Shown in pieces: positions 27,346 to 64,000 of a stretch of 64,000 bases of DNA. How positions within the stretch are numbered: the stretch's first letter is position 1; every line of letters begins with the position of its first letter. The stretch is from an uncultured Sulfurovum sp. Its GTDB lineage: Bacteria > Campylobacterota > Campylobacteria > Campylobacterales > Sulfurovaceae. Made by a program: the position numbers and the translations under genes. The notes under the pieces were generated by a model, which did not search any database, was not told where the DNA came from, and saw nothing but the letters and a program-made list of their open reading frames with translations. Where the stretch lies: assembly GCA_913055205.1 (NCBI GenBank), contig CAJXJN010000002.1, positions 32,028 to 96,027 of the forward strand, in the 5' to 3' direction.

Positions 27346-29678
27346 TTTTGATCTTCCTCGTAGTAACCATAGCCGTAACCGTAGCCGTAACCGTAACCGT
27401 AGCCGTAACCATTTTTACCCATTTTGACATCATTCAGCAAAATACCGAAACCGCTGATCTCCTCTTTGGAGAGTTTTTCTATATTACGTAAAAAATCTTT
27501 TTTTGAATAGTCTGCTCTCAATACATAAATACTGGTATCTGCAAAATGCATCAGCGTTCTTGCATCTGTCACCAGGCCGATCGGCGGGGTATCCAGGATG
27601 ATCACATCATACACTTCTCTTAACTTTTCCAGTACCTTTTCCATCAGTTCACTCTGTATCAGTTCACTCGGATTCGGCGGCACCGGTCCCGAAGCGATGA
27701 TATCCAGATTTTCATACTCGGTATGCTGGATCACATCCCCCAAACCTGTACGTCCTGACAACAAGGTACTCATACCTTTTGTATTTTGGAGTCCGAATTT
27801 CTGATGCAAAGTCGGTTTTCGCATATCAAGGTTCAGTATGATGGTTTTCTTTTCTGCCATACTCATGATCCCACCCAGGTTAATACAGATCGTTGTCTTC
27901 CCTTCACCACCAATGGTCGAAGTGATCGCGATCACATGGGCACTCTTGCCTTTTGCCATGAACTGCAGGTTGGTCCTGAGGTTTCTGAAAGATTCTGCTA
28001 TGGCGGACTTCGGGGACAAAAAGACTTTGATCTTCTCCTGACCCTCTTTGATATTCGGGATCAGACCAAGCAGAGGGACATGGGTTCCCTGCACAACATC
28101 CTCTTCGGTTTTGATGCGGTCATCCAAAAATGCCCTCAGAAAAGCCAGTGCGATCCCAAGGATCAACCCCAGGATCAATCCTACCAATACGATCAGTTTT
28201 CTCTTAGGCTTGATCGGAATTTCAGGGGTAAGCGCTCTGTCGATGATTCTGTTCTTACTGACCGTAGAAGCTTTGATGATCGCTGTTTCAGAGCGTTTCT
28301 CCAGCAAATAAGAGTAGATCTTCTCATTGACTGCAAATTTACGCTGCAGCTGACCGTACATTCGCTCATCTGCAGGAAGCTTGTTCAGAAGTTTCTGCTG
28401 ATGGGCGATCGATTTTTCGATCAGAACTTTTCTCTCAGTGATACTTTTTTTCAAATTTTTGATCGTGACCACAATGATCTTCTTGAGCTGTATGATCTTC
28501 TTTCTGAGTTTAGCCACTTCCGGGTACATCTCTGTATAGTCTTCACGCAGGATCTTCTTTTTGATGATGGCATCCTGAAGATCTTTGATCTTCTGTGAGA
28601 GAGAGGACTGTTCCATATCGAGTCCCCCGATGGAGATCGTCTCAAGGTTCTTACCTGACTTCACCTGCTTATAAAGGGTGTTTAACATCTCTTGTTTAAT
28701 GGATATTCCTGCAAGCTGCGTTTCATATTCACTCATCTGCCGGATGATATTTTCTGCTTTGGAGCTTAGACTTACGGTATTGGACGTTTTCTTGAACTCT
28801 TCAAGTTTAATGGCGGAGCTTTTAAGATTTTCCGTGATCAGTTTCAACTGTTTATCTATAAAATCGAGTTTACGTGTTGCTTCTTTGGTTTTTTTCTCTA
28901 TATTCTGCTCTATGTAAGCCGCAGAGAGCGCATTGGCAAACTCCTGTGCACGCAGGGCAACATTGTCCTCATAGGAGATCTCCAGGATGGTCGAGTATTT
29001 GGATGTCTGGTTCACGCTGACCCCTTTTTGGACCAGACTTGCCACCTTCGCAGGATCGATGATCACAAAACGGTACTCGGCATCCGCCGTTTTCTTTGTT
29101 CTGACGATATTCAGATGAAAATGCTCCGTCACGATCTCTTTTCCGTAAAAGTGTATTTTATCATAGCTCCAGACGGTACCGTCATCTGCTTTGGCTTCCT
29201 TCACTACCAGACGGTAACGTTTTTCATCCACCGGAATGAAGTCAAACGAGACCCCATACCCTTTCAGCATTCCCACTTCAAAGGGAGCATCCTTGTAGAG
29301 TTCGATCTCTTTAAATTTTCTGGTCGTATAATACTTATGGGAAAAATCTACTTTTTTCAGTGCCTTTTCGGTCAAAAATCTCGATTTTATGATCTCTTTT
29401 TCGGTATCCGCATTCATCGTCCCGGGGTCCATCGCCATCGCCAACATATCCTGTGAGCGGTATCCACGTTGTCCCAGACCTACCTCAACAGTGGCAGAAG
29501 CCCTGTAGACATTAGGTTTAAAATAGGCATAAAAACTACTGGCAAGTGTAAATAAAACGACTAAAGAGAGGATCATATACCGATACCGGTAAATGGTCCT
29601 AAAGACCTCTTTAATATCTATTTCATCTTCATCTGTCTGTATGTTATGTGTATTCATTTTTTTCCTTGGAAATGCCAT
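27342..29678 (-). CDS. Wzc-type polysaccharide co-polymerase / tyrosine autokinase with YG-repeat tail
   Basis: Wzz domain; ITSTIGGEGKTTICINLGGIMS; VIILDTPPIGLVTDA; C-term GYGYGYGYGYGYGYGYYEEDQK. Confidence 0.95.
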   Translation of the reverse strand: MAFPRKKMNTHNIQTDEDEIDIKEVFRTIYRYRYMILSLVVLFTLASSFYAYFKPNVYRASATVEVGLGQRGYRSQDMLAMAMDPGTMNADTEKEIIKSRFLTEKALKKVDFSHKYYTTRKFKEIELYKDAPFEVGMLKGYGVSFDFIPVDEKRYRLVVKEAKADDGTVWSYDKIHFYGKEIVTEHFHLNIVRTKKTADAEYRFVIIDPAKVASLVQKGVSVNQTSKYSTILEISYEDNVALRAQEFANALSAAYIEQNIEKKTKEATRKLDFIDKQLKLITENLKSSAIKLEEFKKTSNTVSLSSKAENIIRQMSEYETQLAGISIKQEMLNTLYKQVKSGKNLETISIGGLDMEQSSLSQKIKDLQDAIIKKKILREDYTEMYPEVAKLRKKIIQLKKIIVVTIKNLKKSITERKVLIEKSIAHQQKLLNKLPADERMYGQLQRKFAVNEKIYSYLLEKRSETAIIKASTVSKNRIIDRALTPEIPIKPKRKLIVLVGLILGLILGIALAFLRAFLDDRIKTEEDVVQGTHVPLLGLIPNIKEGQEKIKVFLSPKSAIAESFRNLRTNLQFMAKGKSAHVIAITSTIGGEGKTTICINLGGIMSMAEKKTIILNLDMRKPTLHQKFGLQNTKGMSTLLSGRTGLGDVIQHTEYENLDIIASGPVPPNPSELIQSELMEKVLEKLREVYDVIILDTPPIGLVTDARTLMHFADTSIYVLRADYSKKDFLRNIEKLSKEEISGFGILLNDVKMGKNGYGYGYGYGYGYGYGYYEEDQK
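27363..27413. repeat. hexanucleotide tandem repeat encoding the Tyr-Gly tail of Wzc
   Basis: gtaaccatagccgtaaccgtagccgtaaccgtaaccgtagccgtaacca. Confidence 0.9.
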
Positions 29679-30674: not shown

Positions 30675-30752
30675 TCCTATCACTATCACTATCTTGCTAT
30701 AATACCCCCATGCCAAATAGTCAACTATCCACTATCCACTATCCACTATCAC
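30600..30752. repeat. CCACTAT/CACTATC tandem hexa-/heptamer arrays (three clusters: 30600-30625, 30665-30694, 30722-30752)
   Basis: e.g. ccactatccactatccactatcac. Confidence 0.85.
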
Positions 30753-53326: not shown

Positions 53327-54541
53327 CTAATCACTCCCAAACAAATCACGAGTATAAACTTTTTCTTCTACATCTTTGAGATCTTCTGAAAGTCTATTTG
53401 CTACAATAACATCTGATATCTTTTTAAACTCATCCAAGTCTTTGATTACTCTTGAGTGAAAAAACTCTTCTTCATATAGTACAGGTTCATATACAACAAC
53501 TTCAATCCCTTTAGCTTTAAGACGTTTCATAACCCCCTGAATAGCTGAACTTCTAAAGTTGTCTGATCCACTTTTCATAACAAGTCTATAAATTCCCACT
53601 ACTTGGGAATTTAGTTTTGAGTTTTTAGTTTTTAGTTTTGAGTTATTTTGATCGTTGAGCATTTTGACAACACTATCTGCAATGAAGTCTTTACGGGTAG
53701 TGTTCGCTTCAACAATCGCCTGGATCATCTTGCTTGGAACATCCTTGTAGTTTGCCAGAAGTTGCTTTGTATCTTTTGGCAAACAGTAGCCACCATAGCC
53801 AAACGAAGGATTATTGTAGTGTGTACCAATGCGAGGGTCTAAGCCTACACCATCGATGATCTCTTTGGTGTTGAGTCCATGAGTCTGTGCATAAGTGTCT
53901 AATTCGTTAAAATAAGCAACACGCATTGCTAAGTAAGTGTTAGCAAAGAGTTTAATGGCTTCTGCCTCTGTTGAATCGGTAAACAGTACAGAAATATCTT
54001 CTTTGATAGCACCTTCCTTAAGAAGGTTGGCAAAAATTTCTGCACGTTCACTCTTTTCACCTACGATGATGCGTGAAGGATGCAAGTTGTCATAAAGAGC
54101 AGAACCTTCCCGTAAAAACTCTGGAGAGAAGATGATATTCTCCGTGTTGAACTCTTGTTTAACTCGTTCTACATAACCTACAGGAATAGTAGACTTTATG
54201 ACCATAACAGCATCAGGATTGTATTCCAACACATCTGCAATGACATATTCTATACTCTTAGTGTTAAAATAGTTAGTCTCTGGATCATAGTCAGTCGGTG
54301 TCGCGATGATAACAAAGTCTGCATCTCTATACGCTTCCGCTTTATCTAAAGTCGCTTTGAAATTTAGATCAGTACGCAAAAGATACTCTTCTATCTCTTT
54401 ATCTTCAATAGGTGACTTCTTAGCATTGATCATTTCAACCTTCTCAGGGATGATATCAAGTGCTACAACTTCATTGTTTTGTGCTAAAAGAATACCGTTG
54501 GATAGACCAACGTAACCTGTACCTGCTATTGCTATTTTCAT
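53327..54541 (-). CDS. ugd: UDP-glucose 6-dehydrogenase carrying an in-frame repeat-encoded insertion
   Basis: [36 protein letters not shown]; insertion [15 protein letters not shown] before [17 protein letters not shown]. Confidence 0.95.
53605..53650. repeat. GTTTTGA/GTTTTTA heptamer array in ugd
   Basis: gttttga gttttta gttttta gttttga gttattt. Confidence 0.9.
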
Positions 54542-54584
54542 TTAATTCCTTTGGAATTCGTAATTTGTTGTTGTATAATGTTCA

Positions 54585-55835
54585 TTAACTATTTCCCTTG
54601 TACCAATCATACATACGCATTATACCTTCTTCAAGATCTATCTTATGATGCCAACCTAAAGAATGAAGCTTAGAAACATCCGTAAGCTTCTTCATCGTAC
54701 CGTCCGGTTTGTCGGTGTTGAAGTAAAGCTCGCCCTTAAAACAAATAAGATCTTTTATCATGTAGGCTAGCTCCTTTATACTAACATCTACTCCAGTTCC
54801 AATATTTATATGGGTGTTTCGGATCTCATTTGTTAATGTTGAATGCTTAATGTTGAATTTTGAATTATCTTTTTCACTATTGATGACATCAGAGAAGTCT
54901 CTGTTTTCCATGAGGAATACGCAGGCATCGGCCATATCGTGGCTCCATAAAAATTCGCGGCGTGGCTTACCGGAACCCCAAATTTCTATTGAAATTTGGG
55001 GTTGTGATAGTGGATTGTGATAGTGGATAGCAATTCCATACTTTTCAAGTACTCCAATGATCTCTTCTTTCGAAGATGATCCGTCGATGCCTTCGATGGG
55101 GAGTTTGTTAAGATCTTTTCTGATGGCATCCCAGTTGTTCTCTTCTAATACTTTTCCCAGGTGGATCTTTCTGATGAGTGCCGGAAGTACATGTGATTTT
55201 TCCAGGTCAAAGTTGTCATTGGGACCGTAGAGGTTTGTTGGCATCACTGAGATGTAGTTGGTGCCGTACTGCAGGTTGTAACTTTCACACATCTTGATAC
55301 CTGCGATTTTTGCTATGGCATAAGGTTCATTGGTGTATTCGAGTGTATCTGTAAGCAGGCAGTCCTCTGGCATAGGTTGTGGCGCATTCTTTGGGTAAAT
55401 ACAGGTAGATCCCAGGAACATCAGTTTTTTGACATTGTTCTTATAGCTTTGGTGGATAATGTTGTTCTGTATCTGCAAGTTCTCATAGATGAAGTCCGCA
55501 CGGTAGGTGTTGTTCGCCACAATACCACCTACTTTTGCTGCAGCTAGAAATACGAACTCTGGAAGCTCTGATTTGAAAAACTCATCTGTAGCTGTTGCAT
55601 CTAATAAGTCTAGTTTAACATATTTGACGGGGTTCGTATTTAATGTTGAATGTTTAATGTTTAATTTTGAATTGTTTGGGATGCGCTTATGGTAGTTTGC
55701 TACTATGTTTGTGTAGCCTTTTTCCAACAAGTTTTGAATAATAGCAGAGCCTACAAGACCTGTACCACCCGCTACAAAAATCTTTGAAGATTTTTGTAAT
55801 GGTGAATGTTTAATGTTTAATTTTGAATTATCCAT
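54585..55835 (-). CDS. fcl: GDP-L-fucose synthase with repeat-encoded insertions
   Basis: KIFVAGGTGLVGSAIIQNLLEKGYTNIV; FLGSTCIYPKNAPQPMPED; peptides NSKLNIKHSPL, NSKLNIKHSTL, NSKFNIKHSTL. Confidence 0.95.
   Translation of the reverse strand: MDNSKLNIKHSPLQKSSKIFVAGGTGLVGSAIIQNLLEKGYTNIVANYHKRIPNNSKLNIKHSTLNTNPVKYVKLDLLDATATDEFFKSELPEFVFLAAAKVGGIVANNTYRADFIYENLQIQNNIIHQSYKNNVKKLMFLGSTCIYPKNAPQPMPEDCLLTDTLEYTNEPYAIAKIAGIKMCESYNLQYGTNYISVMPTNLYGPNDNFDLEKSHVLPALIRKIHLGKVLEENNWDAIRKDLNKLPIEGIDGSSSKEEIIGVLEKYGIAIHYHNPLSQPQISIEIWGSGKPRREFLWSHDMADACVFLMENRDFSDVINSEKDNSKFNIKHSTLTNEIRNTHINIGTGVDVSIKELAYMIKDLICFKGELYFNTDKPDGTMKKLTDVSKLHSLGWHHKIDLEEGIMRMYDWYKGNS
54831..54867. repeat. heptamer array in fcl
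   Basis: gttaatg ttgaatg cttaatg ttgaatt ttgaatt. Confidence 0.9.
54976..55030. repeat. perfect 11-bp-arm hairpin followed by GTGATAG-type array inside fcl
   Basis: ccccaaatttc-tatt-gaaatttgggg then ttgtgatagtggattgtgatagtggatag. Confidence 0.9.
55636..55676. repeat. heptamer array in fcl
   Basis: gtattta atgttga atgttta atgttta attttga att. Confidence 0.9.
55803..55831. repeat. heptamer array encoding the Fcl N-terminal extension; left flank of four-helix-bundle cassette B
   Basis: tgaatgtttaatgtttaattttgaattat. Confidence 0.9.
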
Positions 55836-55836
55836 A

Positions 55837-56211
55837 TTAATTATTACCTTGTGAACTTTTTACTATTGAAGTTAACAACTTCACTATTTCATCTATTTCG
55901 TTTACCAATGTTCGAACATGCACATCATGTTTATTAAGATAATCCGTTTTTATCAATAGATTGATCCAGTATTTGCTTTCTCTGGCTTCTTTGCTCGCTA
56001 TTGCCATTTTAGCTATGAAGTCAGCTTTACTTTGACCTGCTTGTGCTTCATTAATATTAGCACCAATGGAAGTACCGCTTCTTAGCAGTTGCTTAGATAA
56101 TATATATTCTTTCTTTTCATCACACAGATACTTATAGAGTTTCACAACCCTAATAGCAAATTCAAGCGATTTATCTAAAATAACATTATCTTTCACTTCC
56201 CCTCCATTCAA
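55837..56211 (-). CDS. four-helix-bundle protein (S23/IVP, Avd-like), cassette B; start may be GTG at 56196
   Basis: KSLEFAIRVVKLYKYLCDEKKEYILSKQLLRSGTSIGANINEAQAGQSKADFIAKMAIASKEARESKYWINLL. Confidence 0.92.
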   Translation of the reverse strand: MNGGEVKDNVILDKSLEFAIRVVKLYKYLCDEKKEYILSKQLLRSGTSIGANINEAQAGQSKADFIAKMAIASKEARESKYWINLLIKTDYLNKHDVHVRTLVNEIDEIVKLLTSIVKSSQGNN

Positions 56212-56236
56212 AATTTAAAATTTAAAATTCAACATT
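56206..56236. repeat. heptamer array, right flank of cassette B (inverted relative to left flank)
   Basis: attcaaaatttaaaatttaaaattcaacatt. Confidence 0.9.
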
Positions 56237-56245
56237 GATCATGCA

Positions 56246-57397
56246 CTACTCGAAGTAATTCATGATGGTGTAGCCACCTTCTTTGAGATACTGGTCTTTT
56301 GTCATAAGATGAAGGTCAGACTGCATCATGTCGTTCACAAGTTCTTCAAGCTGATACTCTCTGCTCCAGCCAAGTTTGGTCTCTGCTTTGGTCGGGTCAC
56401 CTAAAAGAAGATCAACCTCTGTAGGTCTGAAGTATTTGGGATCAACAGCAACCACTTCTTTTCCAATTAGATCAGTGATAGTGGAGAGTGATAGTGACAG
56501 GGAATGAATACGGTCTTCATCGATGGATTTGACAATACCTACTTCATCAACACCTTCCCCTTTGAATTCAAGCTCGATCCCTGCATAAGCAAATGCCATT
56601 CTTACAAAATCACGTACTGTGGTTGTCTGTCCTGTAGCAATGACCCAGTCTTCGGGTTCCTCTGCCTGCAGGATGAGCCACATCATTTTAACATAGTCTT
56701 TTGCATGGCCCCAGTCGCGTTTTGCATTGAGGTTACCCAGATAGAGCTTGTCCTGAAGTCCCAAAGCGATCTTGGAAGCTGCACGCGTGATCTTTCTGGT
56801 TACAAAGGTTTCACCTCTTACCGGTGATTCGTGGTTGAACAAAATACCATTACAGGCGAACATGCCGTAGGCTTCTCTATAGTTAATCGTGATCCAATAG
56901 GCATACATCTTTGCTACAGCATAAGGAGAACGCGGATAGAACGGTGTTGTTTCAGATTGAGGTGTCTCCTGTACTTTCCCGTAGAGCTCAGAGGTGGAAG
57001 CCTGATAAATACGTGTCTTTTTTGTAAGCCCCAGAAGTTTAACTGCTTCAAGGATACGAAGTGTTCCTGTACCGTCAGCATTGGCAACATACTCCGGTGT
57101 TTCAAAAGAGACAGCAACATGGCTCATGGCTGCCAGATTGTAGATCTCATCCGGTTGCACCTCCTGGATAATACGGGTCAGGTTCATAGAGTCTGTCATG
57201 TCTCCATAATGGAGGATGAAATTCCTGTTCTCTACATGCGGATCCTGGTAGAGATGGTCGATACGGTCCGTGTTAAAAAGAGATGCACGACGTTTAATAC
57301 CGTGAACGATGTAGCCTTTCTTTAATAAAAATTCAGCCAAATAACTTCCGTCCTGGCCGGTTATCCCAGTTATCAGTGCTACTTTTTGCTTTGCCAT
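56246..57397 (-). CDS. gmd: GDP-mannose 4,6-dehydratase
   Basis: [44 protein letters not shown]. Confidence 0.97.
56473..56500. repeat. GTGATAG-type array in gmd
   Basis: cagtgatagtggagagtgatagtgacag, encodes [10 protein letters not shown]. Confidence 0.7.
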
Positions 57398-57417
57398 TTT
57401 ATTTCCTTTTTATTTGT

Positions 57418-57444
57418 GTTACGTGCTACGGATTACGTGTTACG
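57418..57444. repeat. left inverted repeat (GTGTTAC heptamers) of four-helix-bundle cassette A
   Basis: gttacgtgctacggattacgtgttacg. Confidence 0.9.
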
Positions 57445-57788
57445 ATTTTTTCTCTTATTGATTTCTGTAGATTTGACAACATAGAGAGTATATGATCTGA
57501 CTCTTCTATCCATCTTTTTCCTTCTTGTTTATCTATATAATCTATATCCATTCCAATGTATGTTTGTGTAGCGAATTCAGCTGCTGAACCTTTTGCAATA
57601 TCAAGAAATCGAGCCTGTTCTTTAAAAGATTCTTTTTCCATTCCTTCAGCAATATTACTGGGGATAGAAAGCCCTGCACGGGTGATTTGATCTTTAAACC
57701 CAAAGTCTTTACACTCTTTAAAAGCTTTATAGACATTAGCAGAGAGTCTAGCACTCTTCTTCCACACATCCAATTTTTCACATTTCAT
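57426..57788 (-). CDS. four-helix-bundle protein (S23/IVP, Avd-like), cassette A
   Basis: MKCEKLDVWKKSARLSANVYKAFKECKDFGFKDQITRAGLSIPSNIAEGMEKESFKEQARFLDIAKGSAAE. Confidence 0.95.
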   Translation of the reverse strand: MKCEKLDVWKKSARLSANVYKAFKECKDFGFKDQITRAGLSIPSNIAEGMEKESFKEQARFLDIAKGSAAEFATQTYIGMDIDYIDKQEGKRWIEESDHILSMLSNLQKSIREKIVTRNP

Positions 57789-57800
57789 TTAATACCTTTT

Positions 57801-57827
57801 CGTAACACATAACACGTAGCACTTAAC
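57801..57827. repeat. right inverted repeat of cassette A
   Basis: cgtaacacataacacgtagcacttaac; reverse complement matches 57418-57444 at 23 of 27 positions. Confidence 0.9.
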
Positions 57828-57883
57828 TCTACTCTCTCTGAAAATCATCAGAGAATCTGACGATATCATCCTCCCCCTCTATC

Positions 57884-57911
57884 ACTATCACACGTCACTA
57901 TCACTATTTTG
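57884..57911. repeat. CACTATC-type array overlapping the NUDIX gene 3' end
   Basis: tatcactatcacacgtcactatcactat. Confidence 0.85.
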
Positions 57912-58391
57912 TGGGACCTTTCCCTTCTCTTTTGTAAAATAGTCTTTTACATAGGCATGTACTTCATCACTCTGCATCAGCTCTTCAAGATCGAACCATC
58001 GGTAATCATCATGCTGATCCCTAGGCAGATCCTCAAGATCTGATACTTCTATCTCATACCCAAGATTAAGATAATGGGTCGAAACAGTCTCAAAAATACT
58101 ATCGTCATAGAGATGCTCGAAAACACCGATGAACTTTGGATTATTATCAATAATTATACCTAATTCTAGCTTGCTGATACGTTTGATGGCATCCTTGATG
58201 CGCTCGTTTTTAAATACTCTACCACCCAGTGTAAAATAATATCCTTGAGCAGGTTTATTGACTCTTTTTCCGAGTAATACCTTACCTTTTTGTTTAACAA
58301 TAAGATCAACTGAGACAAGTGGTGTGTTCTCAATAAGCGTTTTAAAAAGATCTCCCTCTATATAGCCCGGATTAGTTTCTTTCAAAGTCAT
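57888..58391 (-). CDS. GDP-mannose mannosyl hydrolase-type NUDIX protein
   Basis: PLVSVDLIVKQKGKVLLGKRVNKPAQGYYFTLGGRVFKNERIKDAIKRISKLELG. Confidence 0.9.
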   Translation of the reverse strand: MTLKETNPGYIEGDLFKTLIENTPLVSVDLIVKQKGKVLLGKRVNKPAQGYYFTLGGRVFKNERIKDAIKRISKLELGIIIDNNPKFIGVFEHLYDDSIFETVSTHYLNLGYEIEVSDLEDLPRDQHDDYRWFDLEELMQSDEVHAYVKDYFTKEKGKVPQNSDSDV

Positions 58392-59901
58392 CCTCTACAC
58401 GAATGATGTCATCTTCCCCGACATATTCACCCACCTGTGCTTCGATCATCACAAGAGGGATCTTCCCTATATTTTCAAGGCGGTGGACTTCACCCATAGA
58501 GATATAGGTTGATTCGTTTGCTCTTACAGGATACTCATCTGCTCCTCTTGTGACCAATGCTGTCCCACTGACCACAACCCAGTGCTCAGAACGGTGATGG
58601 TGCTTTTGTAAAGAGAGACGTTTACCGGGTTTAACAACGATACGCTTTACTTTATAGCCCTCTGACTCATCCAGTATGGTATAGGTACCCCATGGTCTGT
58701 GTGCCGTAACATGAATGTTTGGCAGTTCAGATTTTTTCTCTTTGAGTCTTTTGACTACCTCTTTAATCTTTTGACTGCTCCCTTTTTTAGAAACCAAAAG
58801 TGCATCTGCCGTATCAATGATAATAAGGTCATCTACGTCTATCATAGCAACTTGTTTCTCAGAGAGGATCAAGTTGTTATTCGAATTTTGAATGATTAAT
58901 GCTGAATTTTGAATTGAAGTTGTAGCATTGCCATTGTTATCATGAGGTAATTCTTCGTAAAGTGCATCGAAGCTTCCAAGATCGCTCCAGTCAATATCTG
59001 AGGGAACGACCTTTACCTTGTCGCTTTTTTCCATGACGGCATAGTCTATGGATTCTTCCGGAATCTCTGCCATCGATGAGTGATCGATTCGGAGCAATTC
59101 CGGAGTGTTGAGTGTTGAGTTTTGTCCTCGTTCCTGTGGGATTGTCGCTTCGCTCAGACGGGTTTTGAGTTTTTCTATCGCTTTTTTTGAAGCTTCATAG
59201 ATCTCAGGTGCATATTTTTCTAATTCTTCCAAAAACACGCCTGCTTTGAAGCAGAACATTCCGGAGTTCCAGAAGAATTTAGTGATAGTGGATTGTGATA
59301 GTGATTGATCCTCTTGGTTCTTATGAATATATTGCTGTGCCGTTTGAAGATCAGGCTTTTCATGAAAATGAATAACATCCATCCCACAATCACTATCACT
59401 CTCAACTATCACTGAAGCAATCGCTTCAATATATCCAAAGCCTGTTTCAGCAAATTGTGGAGTGATGCCAAAAGTCACAAGATTACACTCTTCTGCAAGA
59501 TTCTTTGCTTTTTCTACGGCTTCCAGATAGGCTTCTTCATCTTTAATGAGATGATCGGAAGGAGTGACAAGAACGATCTCTTCCGGATCGAGGGCAAGAC
59601 AGGCAAGAGCAATAGCAGGTGCAGTATTTCTGCCTACAGGCTCTAAAAGATATTGTGTTGGGTGTTGGGTGTTGGGTGTTGAGTTATGCGTAAGCTCTTC
59701 GAGCTGATCTACTGCTAAAAAATACTGTTCTGCATTTGAGACAATAAACTGCGAATCACAGGATTTTTGGTTTCTTGCTACAGTCTTTTGAAAAAGAGAC
59801 TCACCCTCAAAGAGTTTTACGAACTGCTTCGGCATAAGCGTACGGCTGAGCGGCCATAAACGCGTACCTGAGCCTCCGCATAATATAATATTCGTCATCA
59901 A
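58372..59901 (-). CDS. manC: mannose-1-phosphate guanylyltransferase/mannose-6-phosphate isomerase with several repeat-encoded insertions
   Basis: NIILCGGSGTRLWPLSRTLMPKQFVKLF; FWNSGMFCFKAGVFLEE; RPWGTYTILDESEGYKVKRIVVKPGKRLSLQKHHHRSEHW. Confidence 0.96.
   Translation of the reverse strand: MMTNIILCGGSGTRLWPLSRTLMPKQFVKLFEGESLFQKTVARNQKSCDSQFIVSNAEQYFLAVDQLEELTHNSTPNTQHPTQYLLEPVGRNTAPAIALACLALDPEEIVLVTPSDHLIKDEEAYLEAVEKAKNLAEECNLVTFGITPQFAETGFGYIEAIASVIVESDSDCGMDVIHFHEKPDLQTAQQYIHKNQEDQSLSQSTITKFFWNSGMFCFKAGVFLEELEKYAPEIYEASKKAIEKLKTRLSEATIPQERGQNSTLNTPELLRIDHSSMAEIPEESIDYAVMEKSDKVKVVPSDIDWSDLGSFDALYEELPHDNNGNATTSIQNSALIIQNSNNNLILSEKQVAMIDVDDLIIIDTADALLVSKKGSSQKIKEVVKRLKEKKSELPNIHVTAHRPWGTYTILDESEGYKVKRIVVKPGKRLSLQKHHHRSEHWVVVSGTALVTRGADEYPVRANESTYISMGEVHRLENIGKIPLVMIEAQVGEYVGEDDIIRVEDDFERN
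58881..58917. repeat. heptamer array in manC
   Basis: cgaattt tgaatga ttaatgc tgaattt tgaattg; encodes SIQNSALIIQNSN. Confidence 0.88.
59104..59154. repeat. GTGTTGA array plus 32-nt dispersed core in manC
   Basis: agtgttgagtgttgagtttt + tgtcctcgttcctgtgggattgtcgcttcgct. Confidence 0.9.
59281..59308. repeat. GTGATAG-type array in manC
   Basis: agtgatagtggattgtgatagtgattga. Confidence 0.85.
59387..59413. repeat. inverted CACTATC-type array in manC
   Basis: caatcactatcactctcaactatcact. Confidence 0.85.
59654..59688. repeat. GTGTTGG heptamer array in manC
   Basis: tgtgttgggtgttgggtgttgggtgttgagttatg. Confidence 0.92.
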
Positions 59902-60114
59902 TTCTCCCCCCCCTATTTACCGTAGACCATCGATTTCCAAAAGAAAACCAACGATTTCCAGACAGATCCCCATTTATATACCCTACACTCATATATTCTT
60001 GACATTCTACCATAGAGATCATTGATATTATCCACTCTTATGCCTCTTTTATGATCAACTCACATTTGCTTCCCATTTTTATGTCAGATATGAGATACCC
60101 GTTCTTGCATTCCC

Positions 60115-61467
60115 CTACAATCTCCACGTAGGAGACTCAACGATCCCTTTAATATCTATGAGTACCGGCTCACCTGTACTGATACCTTCATATGCACTGC
60201 GTTCCAACGCTTTAAACTCCTTATGCCCTACAGCGACAATGACTGCATCGTACTTTTTATCTGCTTTAAAAGGATCCGTTATGAACGTGAAGTTCTTCTG
60301 ATCTACATCTTTCTCATCAATCCATGGTTCATAAGCATCAACGTTACAACCATAGTCAGCCAGTTCATCGATGATGTCGAACACTTTGGAGTTACGAATG
60401 TCCGGACAGTCCTCTTTGAACGTCAAACCCATCACAAGTACATTAGAATCTTTGATCTTCTTGTCATGTGAGATCATCTCTTTGATAGCACGTTCGGCTA
60501 TGTACTTACTCATACCATTGTTGATCTGACGAGCACCTAAAATAAGGTTTGGTTTGTAGCCAAGCTCCTGTGCTTTGTGTGTAAGATAGTAAGGGTCCAC
60601 GCCTATGCAGTGGCCGCCTACCAGGCCGGGAGTCAGCTTGATGAAGTTCCATTTTGTTGCGGCAGCATCTATGACCTCCGTAGTATCTATGCCCATCGTG
60701 TCAAAAATAAGAGCAAGTTCATTGATGAGTGCGATGTTAACGTCACGTTGAGTATTTTCAATAACCTTGGAAGCCTCTGCTACTTTGATAGAAGAAGCCA
60801 GATGCGTACCGGCAGTGATGATACTCGCATAAAGATCATCCACTATAGTAGCAATTTCGGGAGTTGAACCGGCCGTAACTTTTAAGATCTTAGTTACTGT
60901 ATGCTCTTTGTCACCCGGGTTGATACGCTCAGGAGAATATCCGCAGAAGAAACCTTTGGTTTCTTCCCGTGTTGAGTGTTGAGTGTTGAGTGTTGAATTA
61001 TTGTCTGAAGAGATATATTTGAGGCCGGAGACTTTTTCAAGGACAGGAACACAGACCTCTTCAGTCACACCAGGATAGACCGTAGATTCGTAGATGACAA
61101 TGTCACCCTCTTTCAGCACTTTTCCCACCGACTCAGAAGATTTAATAAGCGGAGTAAGGTCAGGACGGTTGGAACTGTCTATAGGTGTTGGAACCGTAAC
61201 AATGTAGATATTGCAATCGGCGATATCTTCTAAGTTGCAAGAGAACTTCATGCCGTTATCGATAGCCTCTTTCATCTGAGCTTCGTCCAGTTCAAGAGTA
61301 CGATCATAAGCATTATTCAGTTCATCTATACGCCACTGCGCAATGTCAAAACCTACCACCTCATACTTCTCACTGAAAGCATGCGCCAGAGGCAGACCTA
61401 CGTAACCGAGTCCGATGATCGCTAATTTTGGATTTTGAATTTTGAATTTTGAATTAGTTTTACTCAT
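60115..61467 (-). CDS. UDP-N-acetylhexosamine 6-dehydrogenase (TviB/WbpO-like) with repeat-encoded insertion
   Basis: LAIIGLGYVGLPLAHAFSEKYEVVGFDI; GLVGGHCIGVDPYYLTHKAQELGY. Confidence 0.94.
   Translation of the reverse strand: MSKTNSKFKIQNPKLAIIGLGYVGLPLAHAFSEKYEVVGFDIAQWRIDELNNAYDRTLELDEAQMKEAIDNGMKFSCNLEDIADCNIYIVTVPTPIDSSNRPDLTPLIKSSESVGKVLKEGDIVIYESTVYPGVTEEVCVPVLEKVSGLKYISSDNNSTLNTQHSTREETKGFFCGYSPERINPGDKEHTVTKILKVTAGSTPEIATIVDDLYASIITAGTHLASSIKVAEASKVIENTQRDVNIALINELALIFDTMGIDTTEVIDAAATKWNFIKLTPGLVGGHCIGVDPYYLTHKAQELGYKPNLILGARQINNGMSKYIAERAIKEMISHDKKIKDSNVLVMGLTFKEDCPDIRNSKVFDIIDELADYGCNVDAYEPWIDEKDVDQKNFTFITDPFKADKKYDAVIVAVGHKEFKALERSAYEGISTGEPVLIDIKGIVESPTWRL
60969..61003. repeat. 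GTGTTGA heptamer array in the dehydrogenase gene
   Basis: gtgttga gtgttga gtgttga gtgttga attattg. Confidence 0.93.
61422..61456. repeat. GAATTTT heptamer array encoding the dehydrogenase N-terminus; left flank of remnant C
   Basis: gaattttgaattttgaatt; encodes NSKFKIQNPK. Confidence 0.9.
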
Positions 61468-61470
61468 TTT

Positions 61471-61569
61471 TTATTTCTGTCCTGCGTTGTTTTCATGATA
61501 CTTAGATAAATTGACGATCCGAACAGCAAAATCAAATGATTTACCTACGGTATGATTTTCTGTTTTCAT
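61471..61569 (-). pseudogene. internally deleted four-helix-bundle gene remnant (cassette C)
   Basis: MKTENHTVGKSFDFAVRIVNLSKYHENNAGQK* aligns with N-terminus of 55837-56211 (VKDNVILDKSLEFAIRVVKLYKYLCDEKKEY). Confidence 0.75.
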
Positions 61570-61579
61570 CAATCCCCCC

Positions 61580-61606
61580 AATTTAAAATTTAAAATTAAT
61601 TTAATG
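61580..61606. repeat. heptamer array, right flank of remnant C
   Basis: aatttaaaatttaaaattaatttaatg; shares aatttaaaatttaaaatt with 56206-56236. Confidence 0.9.
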
Positions 61607-61704
61607 ATTATATCGAAAAGAGTTAAGAGCAGCTTTGCAACAATGCTATGTACTATGTGGGTAAACTTTGACATAGTCCTTTGGGACTTGTCAAGTCTCC
61701 TGTG

Positions 61705-62604
61705 TTAGTTTTGGCTCAATTCATAAAAGTGGTTGGTTGCTTTGACGAAGCCGTCTACTGAACCGCAGTCAAAACGTGTACCTTTAAATTTATAGGCAAT
61801 GACTCTGCCCTGTTTGGCTTGTTCGAGAAGGGCATCGGTGATCTGGATCTCTCCGCCTTTTCCCGGTTTGGTCTCTCTGAGGATATCGAAGATATCCGGT
61901 GTAAGGATGTAGCGTCCGATGATCGCCATGTTGGTAGGGGCATCTTTGGGATCCGGTTTTTCCACCATGTCGGTTACCCGATAGGTATCATCCGTGCCAT
62001 CTACCAGATTTCCTGCAATGATACCGTATTTGTCAGTCTGATCCATAGGGACCTCTTCGATGGCTACCACTGAACATTGGTACTTTTCATAGACTTCGAT
62101 CATTTGGGATAAGATACCTTTGGCATCCGTCATTGGTAATTGTCCCCGTTCCTGAGGGATTGTCGCTTTGCTTGGATGGTTATTGGTTATTGGTAGGTTG
62201 TTGGTGCAGAGGTCATCTGCCAATACAACCGCAAAAGGTTCATTTCCTATGAGTGTTTCACCGGTGAGGATAGCATGCCCCAATCCCTTCATCTCTATTT
62301 GTCTGGTGTAAGAGAAGGTACATTGGCTGATGAGAGAACGAATCTCATCAAGAAGAGACTCCTTGGAAGCTCCCTTGATCTGATGTTCAAGCTCATAGGA
62401 GATATCGAAATGATCTTCTATGGCACGTTTACCACGACCCGTAACGATCGCCATAGTGTGGATACCCGCCTCCAGAGCTTCCTCCACGCCATACTGAATA
62501 AGCGGTTTGGTCAAGATAGGCAGCATCTCTTTGGGCGTCGCTTTGGTTGCAGGAAGGAAACGTGTCCCGTAGCCGGCAGCGGGGAATAAACATTTGTTGA
62601 TCAT
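61705..62604 (-). CDS. galU: UTP--glucose-1-phosphate uridylyltransferase with repeat-encoded insertion
   Basis: KCLFPAAGYGTRFLPATKATPKEMLPI; insertion NNLPITNNHPSKATIPQERGQLPMTD after VVLADDLCT. Confidence 0.96.
   Translation of the reverse strand: MINKCLFPAAGYGTRFLPATKATPKEMLPILTKPLIQYGVEEALEAGIHTMAIVTGRGKRAIEDHFDISYELEHQIKGASKESLLDEIRSLISQCTFSYTRQIEMKGLGHAILTGETLIGNEPFAVVLADDLCTNNLPITNNHPSKATIPQERGQLPMTDAKGILSQMIEVYEKYQCSVVAIEEVPMDQTDKYGIIAGNLVDGTDDTYRVTDMVEKPDPKDAPTNMAIIGRYILTPDIFDILRETKPGKGGEIQITDALLEQAKQGRVIAYKFKGTRFDCGSVDGFVKATNHFYELSQN
62132..62213. repeat. 32-nt dispersed core plus GGTTATT-type heptamers in galU
   Basis: tgtccccgttcctgagggattgtcgctttgct (62141-62172), then ggttattggttattggtaggttgttggt. 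Confidence 0.88.
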
Positions 62605-62607
62605 ATA

Positions 62608-62712
62608 AAAATCCTTTGGATCCAGTGTTAAGTATATAGCGAGAAGTAGGTAGTTTTTTATCTCATTGCTTGCTAAGTATTGATGCGATTATAGCTGAAA
62701 ATCCTTTGGATC
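62608..62712. repeat. 15-bp direct repeat aaaatcctttggatc (62608-62622 and 62698-62712) bracketing ~75 bp in the galU-galE gap
   Basis: exact match. Confidence 0.85.
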
Positions 62713-62756
62713 TAAAAGTGTTGAGTGTTATTACGAAAGAGCTCAAGTGCGTATGA

Positions 62757-63782
62757 TCATTTTAACCTTTTTTCCCACGCTAAAGTGGTTTGACAGATCA
62801 CTTCCAGGTCATCATACTTTGGTTCCCAGTTCATAGCATTTTTGATCTTTGTATTGTCAGAAATGAGGATAGCCGGGTCACCTGCACGTCGTTCTTTTAT
62901 CTCGACAGTAAAATCAACACTGCTTACCTTTTTCATGGTATCGATCACCTCTTTGACAGAGAAACCCCGACTGTACCCTACGTTGAATACATCACTTTCA
63001 TGATCTTCAAGATAATCCAATGCTTCAATATGTGCCTGTGCCAGGTCTACCACATGGATATAATCACGAATACCTGTACCGTCCGGAGTAGGATAATCCT
63101 CTCCGAAGATATACATCTTCTCACGTTTCCCCGTCGCTGCTTCTGCCGCTACTTTAATAAGAAGTGTGGCATTTTCGGTAGACTGTCCGATACGACCATC
63201 CGGATCAGATCCTGCTACGTTAAAATAGCGTAATGCTGCATATTTGAATGCGGGGTATGCACATGCCGTATCTTGAAGGATACGCTCACTCATCAGTTTA
63301 CTCATACCGTAAGGGTTGATAGGCTCGGTCGGATCACTCTCTTTAAGCCCTGTTTCCAAGTTGACAAGAGCAGGGTCAGGTTCTCCATAGGTTGCAGCCG
63401 TAGAAGAGAAGATGAATTTTTTCACATCATTCTGCGTGGCACATTTTATGAGATTGGCTGTATTGGCTGTATTGTTAAGATAGTATTTGAGTGGATTTTC
63501 TACACTTTCCGGTACTACGAGAGAAGCAGCAAAATGGATAATGGCATCAAAATGATCTTCAGTCATGATCACTTCAATTTTATCGAAACAAGAAAGATCT
63601 TCCTCGATAAAATTCAGGGTTTTACTGTTTTCATTTGCAATGACGGTAAGTGCATCGATCGTTTCCTGAAATCCTGTTACAAGATTATCAAGAACAGTGA
63701 TCTCATGTTCACTGTTCTCAAGCAATAATTTTACCACATGGCTACCGATATATCCTGCTCCACCTGTTACTAATATCTTCAA
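62757..63782 (-). CDS. galE: UDP-glucose 4-epimerase
   Basis: KILVTGGAGYIGSHVVKLLLENSEHEITVLDNL; YGMSKLMSERIL; NYPTPDGTGIRDYIHVVDLA-like motif. Confidence 0.97.
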   Translation of the reverse strand: MKILVTGGAGYIGSHVVKLLLENSEHEITVLDNLVTGFQETIDALTVIANENSKTLNFIEEDLSCFDKIEVIMTEDHFDAIIHFAASLVVPESVENPLKYYLNNTANTANLIKCATQNDVKKFIFSSTAATYGEPDPALVNLETGLKESDPTEPINPYGMSKLMSERILQDTACAYPAFKYAALRYFNVAGSDPDGRIGQSTENATLLIKVAAEAATGKREKMYIFGEDYPTPDGTGIRDYIHVVDLAQAHIEALDYLEDHESDVFNVGYSRGFSVKEVIDTMKKVSSVDFTVEIKERRAGDPAILISDNTKIKNAMNWEPKYDDLEVICQTTLAWEKRLK

Positions 63783-63857
63783 ATTTTTTCCTCTCTATAT
63801 ATATATTGATTGCATTATATCGAATAAGGAGTTAGAGTTCAGAGTTGCTTGGCAACA

Positions 63858-64000
63858 GTGTTGAGCGTTGAGCGTTGAGTGTTGAGCATTGAGTAATGTT
63901 GAATATTGAATATTGAATGTTAAATGTTAAATGTTAAATGTTATATGTTATATGTTATATGTTATATGTTATATGTTATATGTTATATGTTATATGTTAT
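63858..64000. repeat. long heptanucleotide tandem array with stepwise unit drift, continuing past window edge
   Basis: gtgttga gcgttga gcgttga gtgttga gcattga gtaatgt tgaatat tgaatat tgaatgt (taaatgt)x3 (tatatgt)x8 tat. Confidence 0.97.

Follow-up and report, generated by a model that had tools for sequence, protein, structure and literature searches.

The repeats of REPIN/RAYT systems often form inverted pairs and are tied to one protein family, the transposase-like RAYTs, and the foldback (FB) transposons of eukaryotes carry long terminal inverted repeats made of short tandem repeats. A published precedent for the arrays described here is the set of heptamers beside the 23S IVS of Coxiella burnetii, an insertion called selfish that combines an S23p ORF with terminal inverted repeats, is processed by RNase III, and carries two to three GACAGAT heptamers, varying between strains, before the ORF (PMC4990558). 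Over-represented heptamers include GGGAATC in Xanthomonas and GGGGATT in Nostoc (PMC4692102); TAACTGA is on record for Beggiatoaceae and other bacteria, and in Beggiatoaceae a regulatory or structural role has been proposed for it (PMC4679880). A term search of these last two papers found no link to S23. REPINs are small dispersed repeats (PMC3116915), and the S23 fold is pentameric in the solved relative XCC0516. Neither dispersed heptamers linked to S23 genes outside rRNA nor a general inverted-array architecture there was found in the literature searched, which mostly excludes subscription papers.

The window, the whole stretch of 64,000 nucleotides analysed here, ends in a heptamer array that, read in register from 63857, begins irregularly (GTGTTGA, two GCGTTGA, GTGTTGA, GCATTGA, GTAATGT) and proceeds through two TGAATAT, one TGAATGT and three TAAATGT to eight TATATGT and a partial unit (Table 1), confirming the unit order and the stepwise single-base changes described in the initial annotation. 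Ten runs of period 7 are present in the window, against a single run of period 6, a single run of period 9 and no run of period 5 or 8, and third-order Markov shuffles yield no run of periods 5 to 9 at threshold; the perfect TATATGT run is far beyond chance. Besides one 9-bp run, the only notable non-heptamer array is a GTAACC/GTAGCC hexamer run at 27363-27410. Folding of the terminal array as a single strand gives no signal (z -1.0), and no inverted partner lies nearby.

Table 1. Repeat arrays, S23/IVP genes and flanking genes of the window (positions in window coordinates) and of contig C35
Feature	Position	Strand	Remarks
Solo ACTATCC array	30721-30750	+	
Solo AGTTTTG array in nucleotide-sugar dehydrogenase gene	53610-53644	+	13-residue insert
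Solo array in GDP-fucose synthase gene	54835-54866	+	NSKFNIKHSTL
Solo TTGAATG/TTTAATG array in GDP-fucose synthase gene	55639-55673	+	NSKLNIKHSTLNTN
Element 1, left inverted arm	55798-55829	+	GTGAATG TTTAATG TTTAATT TTGAATT
S23/IVP gene no. 1	55837-56211	-	PF05635, E 1.5e-27
Element 1, right inverted arm	56206-56236	-	TTGAATT TTAAATT TTAAATT on minus strand
Element 2, left arm	57418-57445	+	degenerate CGTAACA-type heptamers, overlaps 3' end of gene
S23/IVP gene no. 2	57426-57788	-	PF05635, E 7e-33
Element 2, right arm	57790-57818	-	inverted CGTAACA-type heptamers
Solo GTGTTGA-type array in mannose-1-P guanylyltransferase-like gene	59103-59124	+	same gene as array at 59655
Solo GTGTTGG x3.9 in mannose-1-P guanylyltransferase-like gene	59655-59681	+	NSTPNTQHPT
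Solo GTGTTGA x4 in dehydrogenase gene	60969-60996	+	in-frame insert NSTLNTQHSTR
Truncated element, left arm AATTTTG x4	61424-61455	+	in frame at N-terminus of 60115-61467 dehydrogenase gene
S23/IVP gene remnant of internally truncated element	61456-61579	-	reads MKTENHTVGKSFDFAVRIVNLSKYH...; on visual comparison like gene no. 1 at its N-terminus
Truncated element, right inverted arm	61580-61597	-	
galE-like epimerase gene, left of terminal array	62757-63782	-	orthologue anchors empty site in G023
Terminal array, left irregular part	63857-63893	+	GTGTTGA/GCGTTGA/GCATTGA units; period-7 run
Terminal array, graded middle	63895-63943	+	TTGAATA x2, TTGAATG, TTAAATG x3; 1 substitution per step
Terminal array, perfect TATATGT run	63938-64000	+	63 bp, up to contig end; resumes as C35:1-55
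S23 four-helix-bundle gene past terminal array	C35:1506-1868		~1.5 kb away

Base 64000 also closes contig C2, which is 96027 bp long. Perfect heptamer runs, some 55-68 bp in length, terminate 12 of the 78 contig ends examined, with no other basic period at any of them, so that long arrays evidently break the assembly, and they account for many contig breaks in this short-read assembly of the source genome. Contigs C3, C6, C13, C31, C34 and C39 likewise end in perfect 55-bp heptamer runs, a tail length that reflects an assembler loop (probably k=55), and the length of the array is therefore a lower bound. Contig C35 opens with exactly 55 bp of the TATATGT run, followed by unique DNA; because a genome-wide pattern search finds TATATGT runs only at these two contig ends, and because both flanks lie no more than about 20 bp apart in the relative G023, C2 and C35 very probably adjoin. 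The one-sided gradient outlasts this join, since on the C35 side the homogeneous run directly abuts unique DNA, beyond which come two tRNA-Asn genes and then a gene for S23. This last supports the hunch of the initial annotation about a four-helix-bundle gene just past the edge; for a reverse transcriptase, the other candidate named there, the genome (86% complete) gave no RVT_1 match. The two tRNA-Asn genes, about 210 bp past the array (L010:263-442), are in tandem with a 90-bp period and 87% alike, and a 32-bp tandem duplication (GTTCATGGGTACC...CACCCCTACA) lies toward the other end of C35 (L010:11698-11761).

Between its galE-side and C35-side flanks, the G023 site lacks a long array and holds GGTTAAT GGTTGTT, roughly two units of imperfect repeat; the right-flank motif occurs nowhere else in the sampled DNA. 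Judged from this sequence comparison, the array appears to be an expansion or insertion in the source genome. As in simple-sequence repeats, its short tandem units thus differ in number between related genomes (the array in G000, about two units in G023); as in mobile elements, presence and absence alternate at orthologous sites of close relatives, both here and at the gmd-fcl junction. An S23 gene occupies that junction in G000, G001, G020, G016, G009 and G002 and is missing from it in G014, G027, G028, G029, G039, G042 and G047, and among these genomes, 82-93% identical in Gmd, each either has a single S23 type, out of three or more that occur there, or lacks the gene, which is mobile-element behaviour.

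The genome encodes five PF05635 (23S_rRNA_IVP/S23p four-helix-bundle) genes, two of them in the window, and none within the terminal array itself. A complete element consists of one such gene, whose product of ~120 aa is an Avd-like four-helix bundle, with an array on either side, the two inverted relative to each other; their unit, mostly of 7 bp and sometimes of 8 or 9, is element-specific and matches on both sides. Full elements resemble 23S IVSs in having terminal inverted repeats round the ORF; they are located between and beside protein genes, not in 23S rRNA, and so are no 23S IVSs proper. As RNA, the arms of the C24 element can pair, with a strong signal (z -5.6), and element 1 folds no better than its shuffles (z -0.9).

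Several other arrays of the window lie inside genes, read on the strand without stop codons, and comparison with solved structures and orthologues identifies them as inserts. Among 14 aligned sequences of the dehydrogenase encoded at 60115-61467, the repeat insert is found in G000 and absent in 11, with different repeat-like inserts in G016 and G010. The region 53327-63782 is a nucleotide-sugar cluster (gmd, fcl-like, guanylyltransferase, dehydrogenases, galE) rich in such in-frame heptamer inserts. Units are common to the terminal array and the scattered ones, as first proposed (TTGAATG/TTTAATG at 55639 and 55798, GTGTTGA at 60969), but the suggestion that the terminal array is their source or hub is not supported: it contains neither TACCTGC/GCAGGTA, the commonest long unit with nine locations, nor any of the AACGCTT arrays. 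The nine GCAGGTA/TACCTGC arrays (L012, L022, L098, L100, L106, L108, L125, L128 and L132) have differing unique flanks, and one abuts an S23 gene (C31).

The same architecture extends across bacteria. In relatives, PF05635 genes over the family cut-off mostly have mirror-image heptamer arms with a locus-specific unit; the weak matches L060-L062, under the cut-off and without arrays, were excluded. A scan of named genomes covered 80 loci and 160 flanks from Bacteroidota, Clostridia, spirochaetes, Geobacter, Nitrospirales, CPR and others, in which 64 flanks exceed the threshold at period 7, 14 at period 8 and four at period 9, with none at periods 4-6 or 10-12. When each upstream flank is aligned to a reverse-complemented downstream flank, the median score is 21 within a locus and 10 between loci (galE control, at most 15; direct orientation, 10), and at about 20 of 111 loci the two flanks score no higher than the controls. 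Most of the S23 copies read on cyanobacterial plasmids share the inverted-array layout, and the arms of a Pseudanabaena copy are direct, not inverted. Cyanobacterial plasmids also place an S23 gene, together with its heptamer arrays, between cas6 and cas4 (L251:1-1841, L252:1-1849), which may be relevant to the published occurrence of S23 genes in cas loci (PMC3936711). Repeats of 9 bp form both arms at L193 and the downstream arm at L148, where the upstream arm has 7-bp units. Repeat period clusters on the S23 protein tree, requiring eight changes vs 12.5 when shuffled (0/200), on a short protein that resolves weakly. Across 60 genomes, S23 and array counts correlate (rho 0.71, or 0.83 in good genomes, shared ancestry uncorrected); G007, G023 and G025, which are 80, 58 and 85% complete, contain several arrays and no detected S23 gene. 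Two Trichormus plasmid loci compared for a change in array length are identical and hence uninformative on it, and a search for phage carriage of the S23 gene gave no match. The predicted S23 fold matches 2gsc and 2rld, and DGR Avd more weakly; the loci yielded neither a target-site duplication nor an excision product, the ends of the elements being blurred by the arrays.

A first alternative to a mobile element is an ordinary microsatellite, lengthened by slippage alone, with heptamers simply being the favoured long simple-sequence repeat of bacteria. Growth by tandem duplication, as put forward in the initial annotation, is indeed supported, since two units take turns along several long arms, as is usual after slippage or unequal duplication; these alternations and block-wise unit patterns, the seed-like pair GGTTAAT GGTTGTT in G023 and the over-representation of heptameric repeats on record (PMC4692102) all agree with such an origin, and slippage probably explains how arrays lengthen. 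As the whole account, slippage is nevertheless unlikely, because it leaves unexplained the near-exclusive choice of period 7 over 4-6, the inverted, locus-specific pairs round one protein family, the recurrence of the GCAGGTA unit at several unrelated places, and the correlation between arrays and S23 genes.

Directional templated addition, in which a reverse transcriptase or telomerase-like activity would extend one end and so create the gradient, is improbable. It would suit the monotone ladder, which copy-error growth coupled to one end reproduces in 82-92% of toy simulations (interior growth, <1%), as well as the likeness of the S23 fold to DGR Avd, the partner of a reverse transcriptase (PMC10053308). 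Even under end growth, however, ladders are rare once mutation acts on all units, as they are in every such model; the genome, as noted, yields no RVT_1 match; and besides the multi-unit alternations, the 21 long arms beside S23 genes have no consistent polarity, the more homogeneous end being distal in six and proximal in eight. The terminal array does show a ladder, but because it was chosen for its graded look, its polarity is no more than suggestive of growth from one end, which a single selected array hardly separates from other modes. The view that the arrays are host regulatory or structural repeats, serving translation control or as recombination hot spots on which S23 genes merely landed, has in its favour the position between galE and two tRNA-Asn genes and the heptamers directly upstream of start codons described by MacGregor in 2015 (PMC4679880), but is very improbable, as insertion into an existing array would give direct rather than inverted arms, and arrays also occur within ORFs and at a variety of sites that have no position in common.

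The terminal array is, in our judgement, probably an arm left on its own and since expanded, from a family of tiny selfish mobile elements of the S23/IVS type, an assignment based on its unit type and genome context. In such a family, the S23 pentamer may recognise the arms as DNA or as an RNA hairpin, and host replication or repair would move the element, perhaps guided by S23 bound to hairpin arms, while template switching from one arm to the other would keep the two matched. Loss of the S23 gene would leave solo arms, which replication slippage could then lengthen; successive expansion of mutated units, each time of the newest variant, would yield the ladder TTGAATA > TTGAATG > TTAAATG > TATATGT. 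Paired arms in transcripts could allow RNase III to excise the element, as in 23S IVSs, making an insertion tolerable, and within genes only the stop-free strand would survive. Architecture, polymorphism and association are observed here, and that S23 is the mover is inferred; no nuclease or transposase motif is known in the protein, which could be a passenger in the movement.

By this reading the terminal array is an ordinary-looking member, and the family is the interesting part, joining two loose ends: heptamers long noted without an origin, and the S23/IVS protein, familiar for decades with no function assigned to it. It is possible, though somewhat less likely than not, that S23/IVP genes form the core of bacteria-wide transposase-less elements, whose pentamer sets the period (7, 8 or 9 bp) and drives the birth, pairing and spread of arms, many unexplained heptamers of cyanobacteria, Xanthomonas and others then being their debris. 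If S23 makes or moves arrays, it would represent a mobile element without a recognised transposase and a new route for short in-frame inserts into proteins. Flavobacterium, Geobacter and Nostoc are among the culturable bacteria that carry S23 genes.

Among known systems, the arrays share with published bacterial heptamers 7-bp units, intergenic as well as in-ORF positions, patchy occurrence across phyla and some inversion, and differ in that the unit is locus-specific and paired round an S23 gene. With REPINs/RAYT they have in common small dispersed repeats and one associated protein family, although no catalytic motif is known for S23 and REPs do not consist of heptamers in tandem. Any likeness to Foldback elements would be by way of working only, hosts, proteins and sizes being different. 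DGR Avd has the same four-helix-bundle fold (Foldseek probability 1.00, TM ~0.8) at 14-16% identity and Foldseek E-values >0.03, and neither a reverse transcriptase nor TR/VR accompanies S23 here. The Coxiella 23S IVS shares the PF05635 family, terminal inverted repeats and heptamers; unlike it, the elements described here are intergenic or lie near or in protein genes, with tandem-array arms on both sides and solo arrays dispersed genome-wide.
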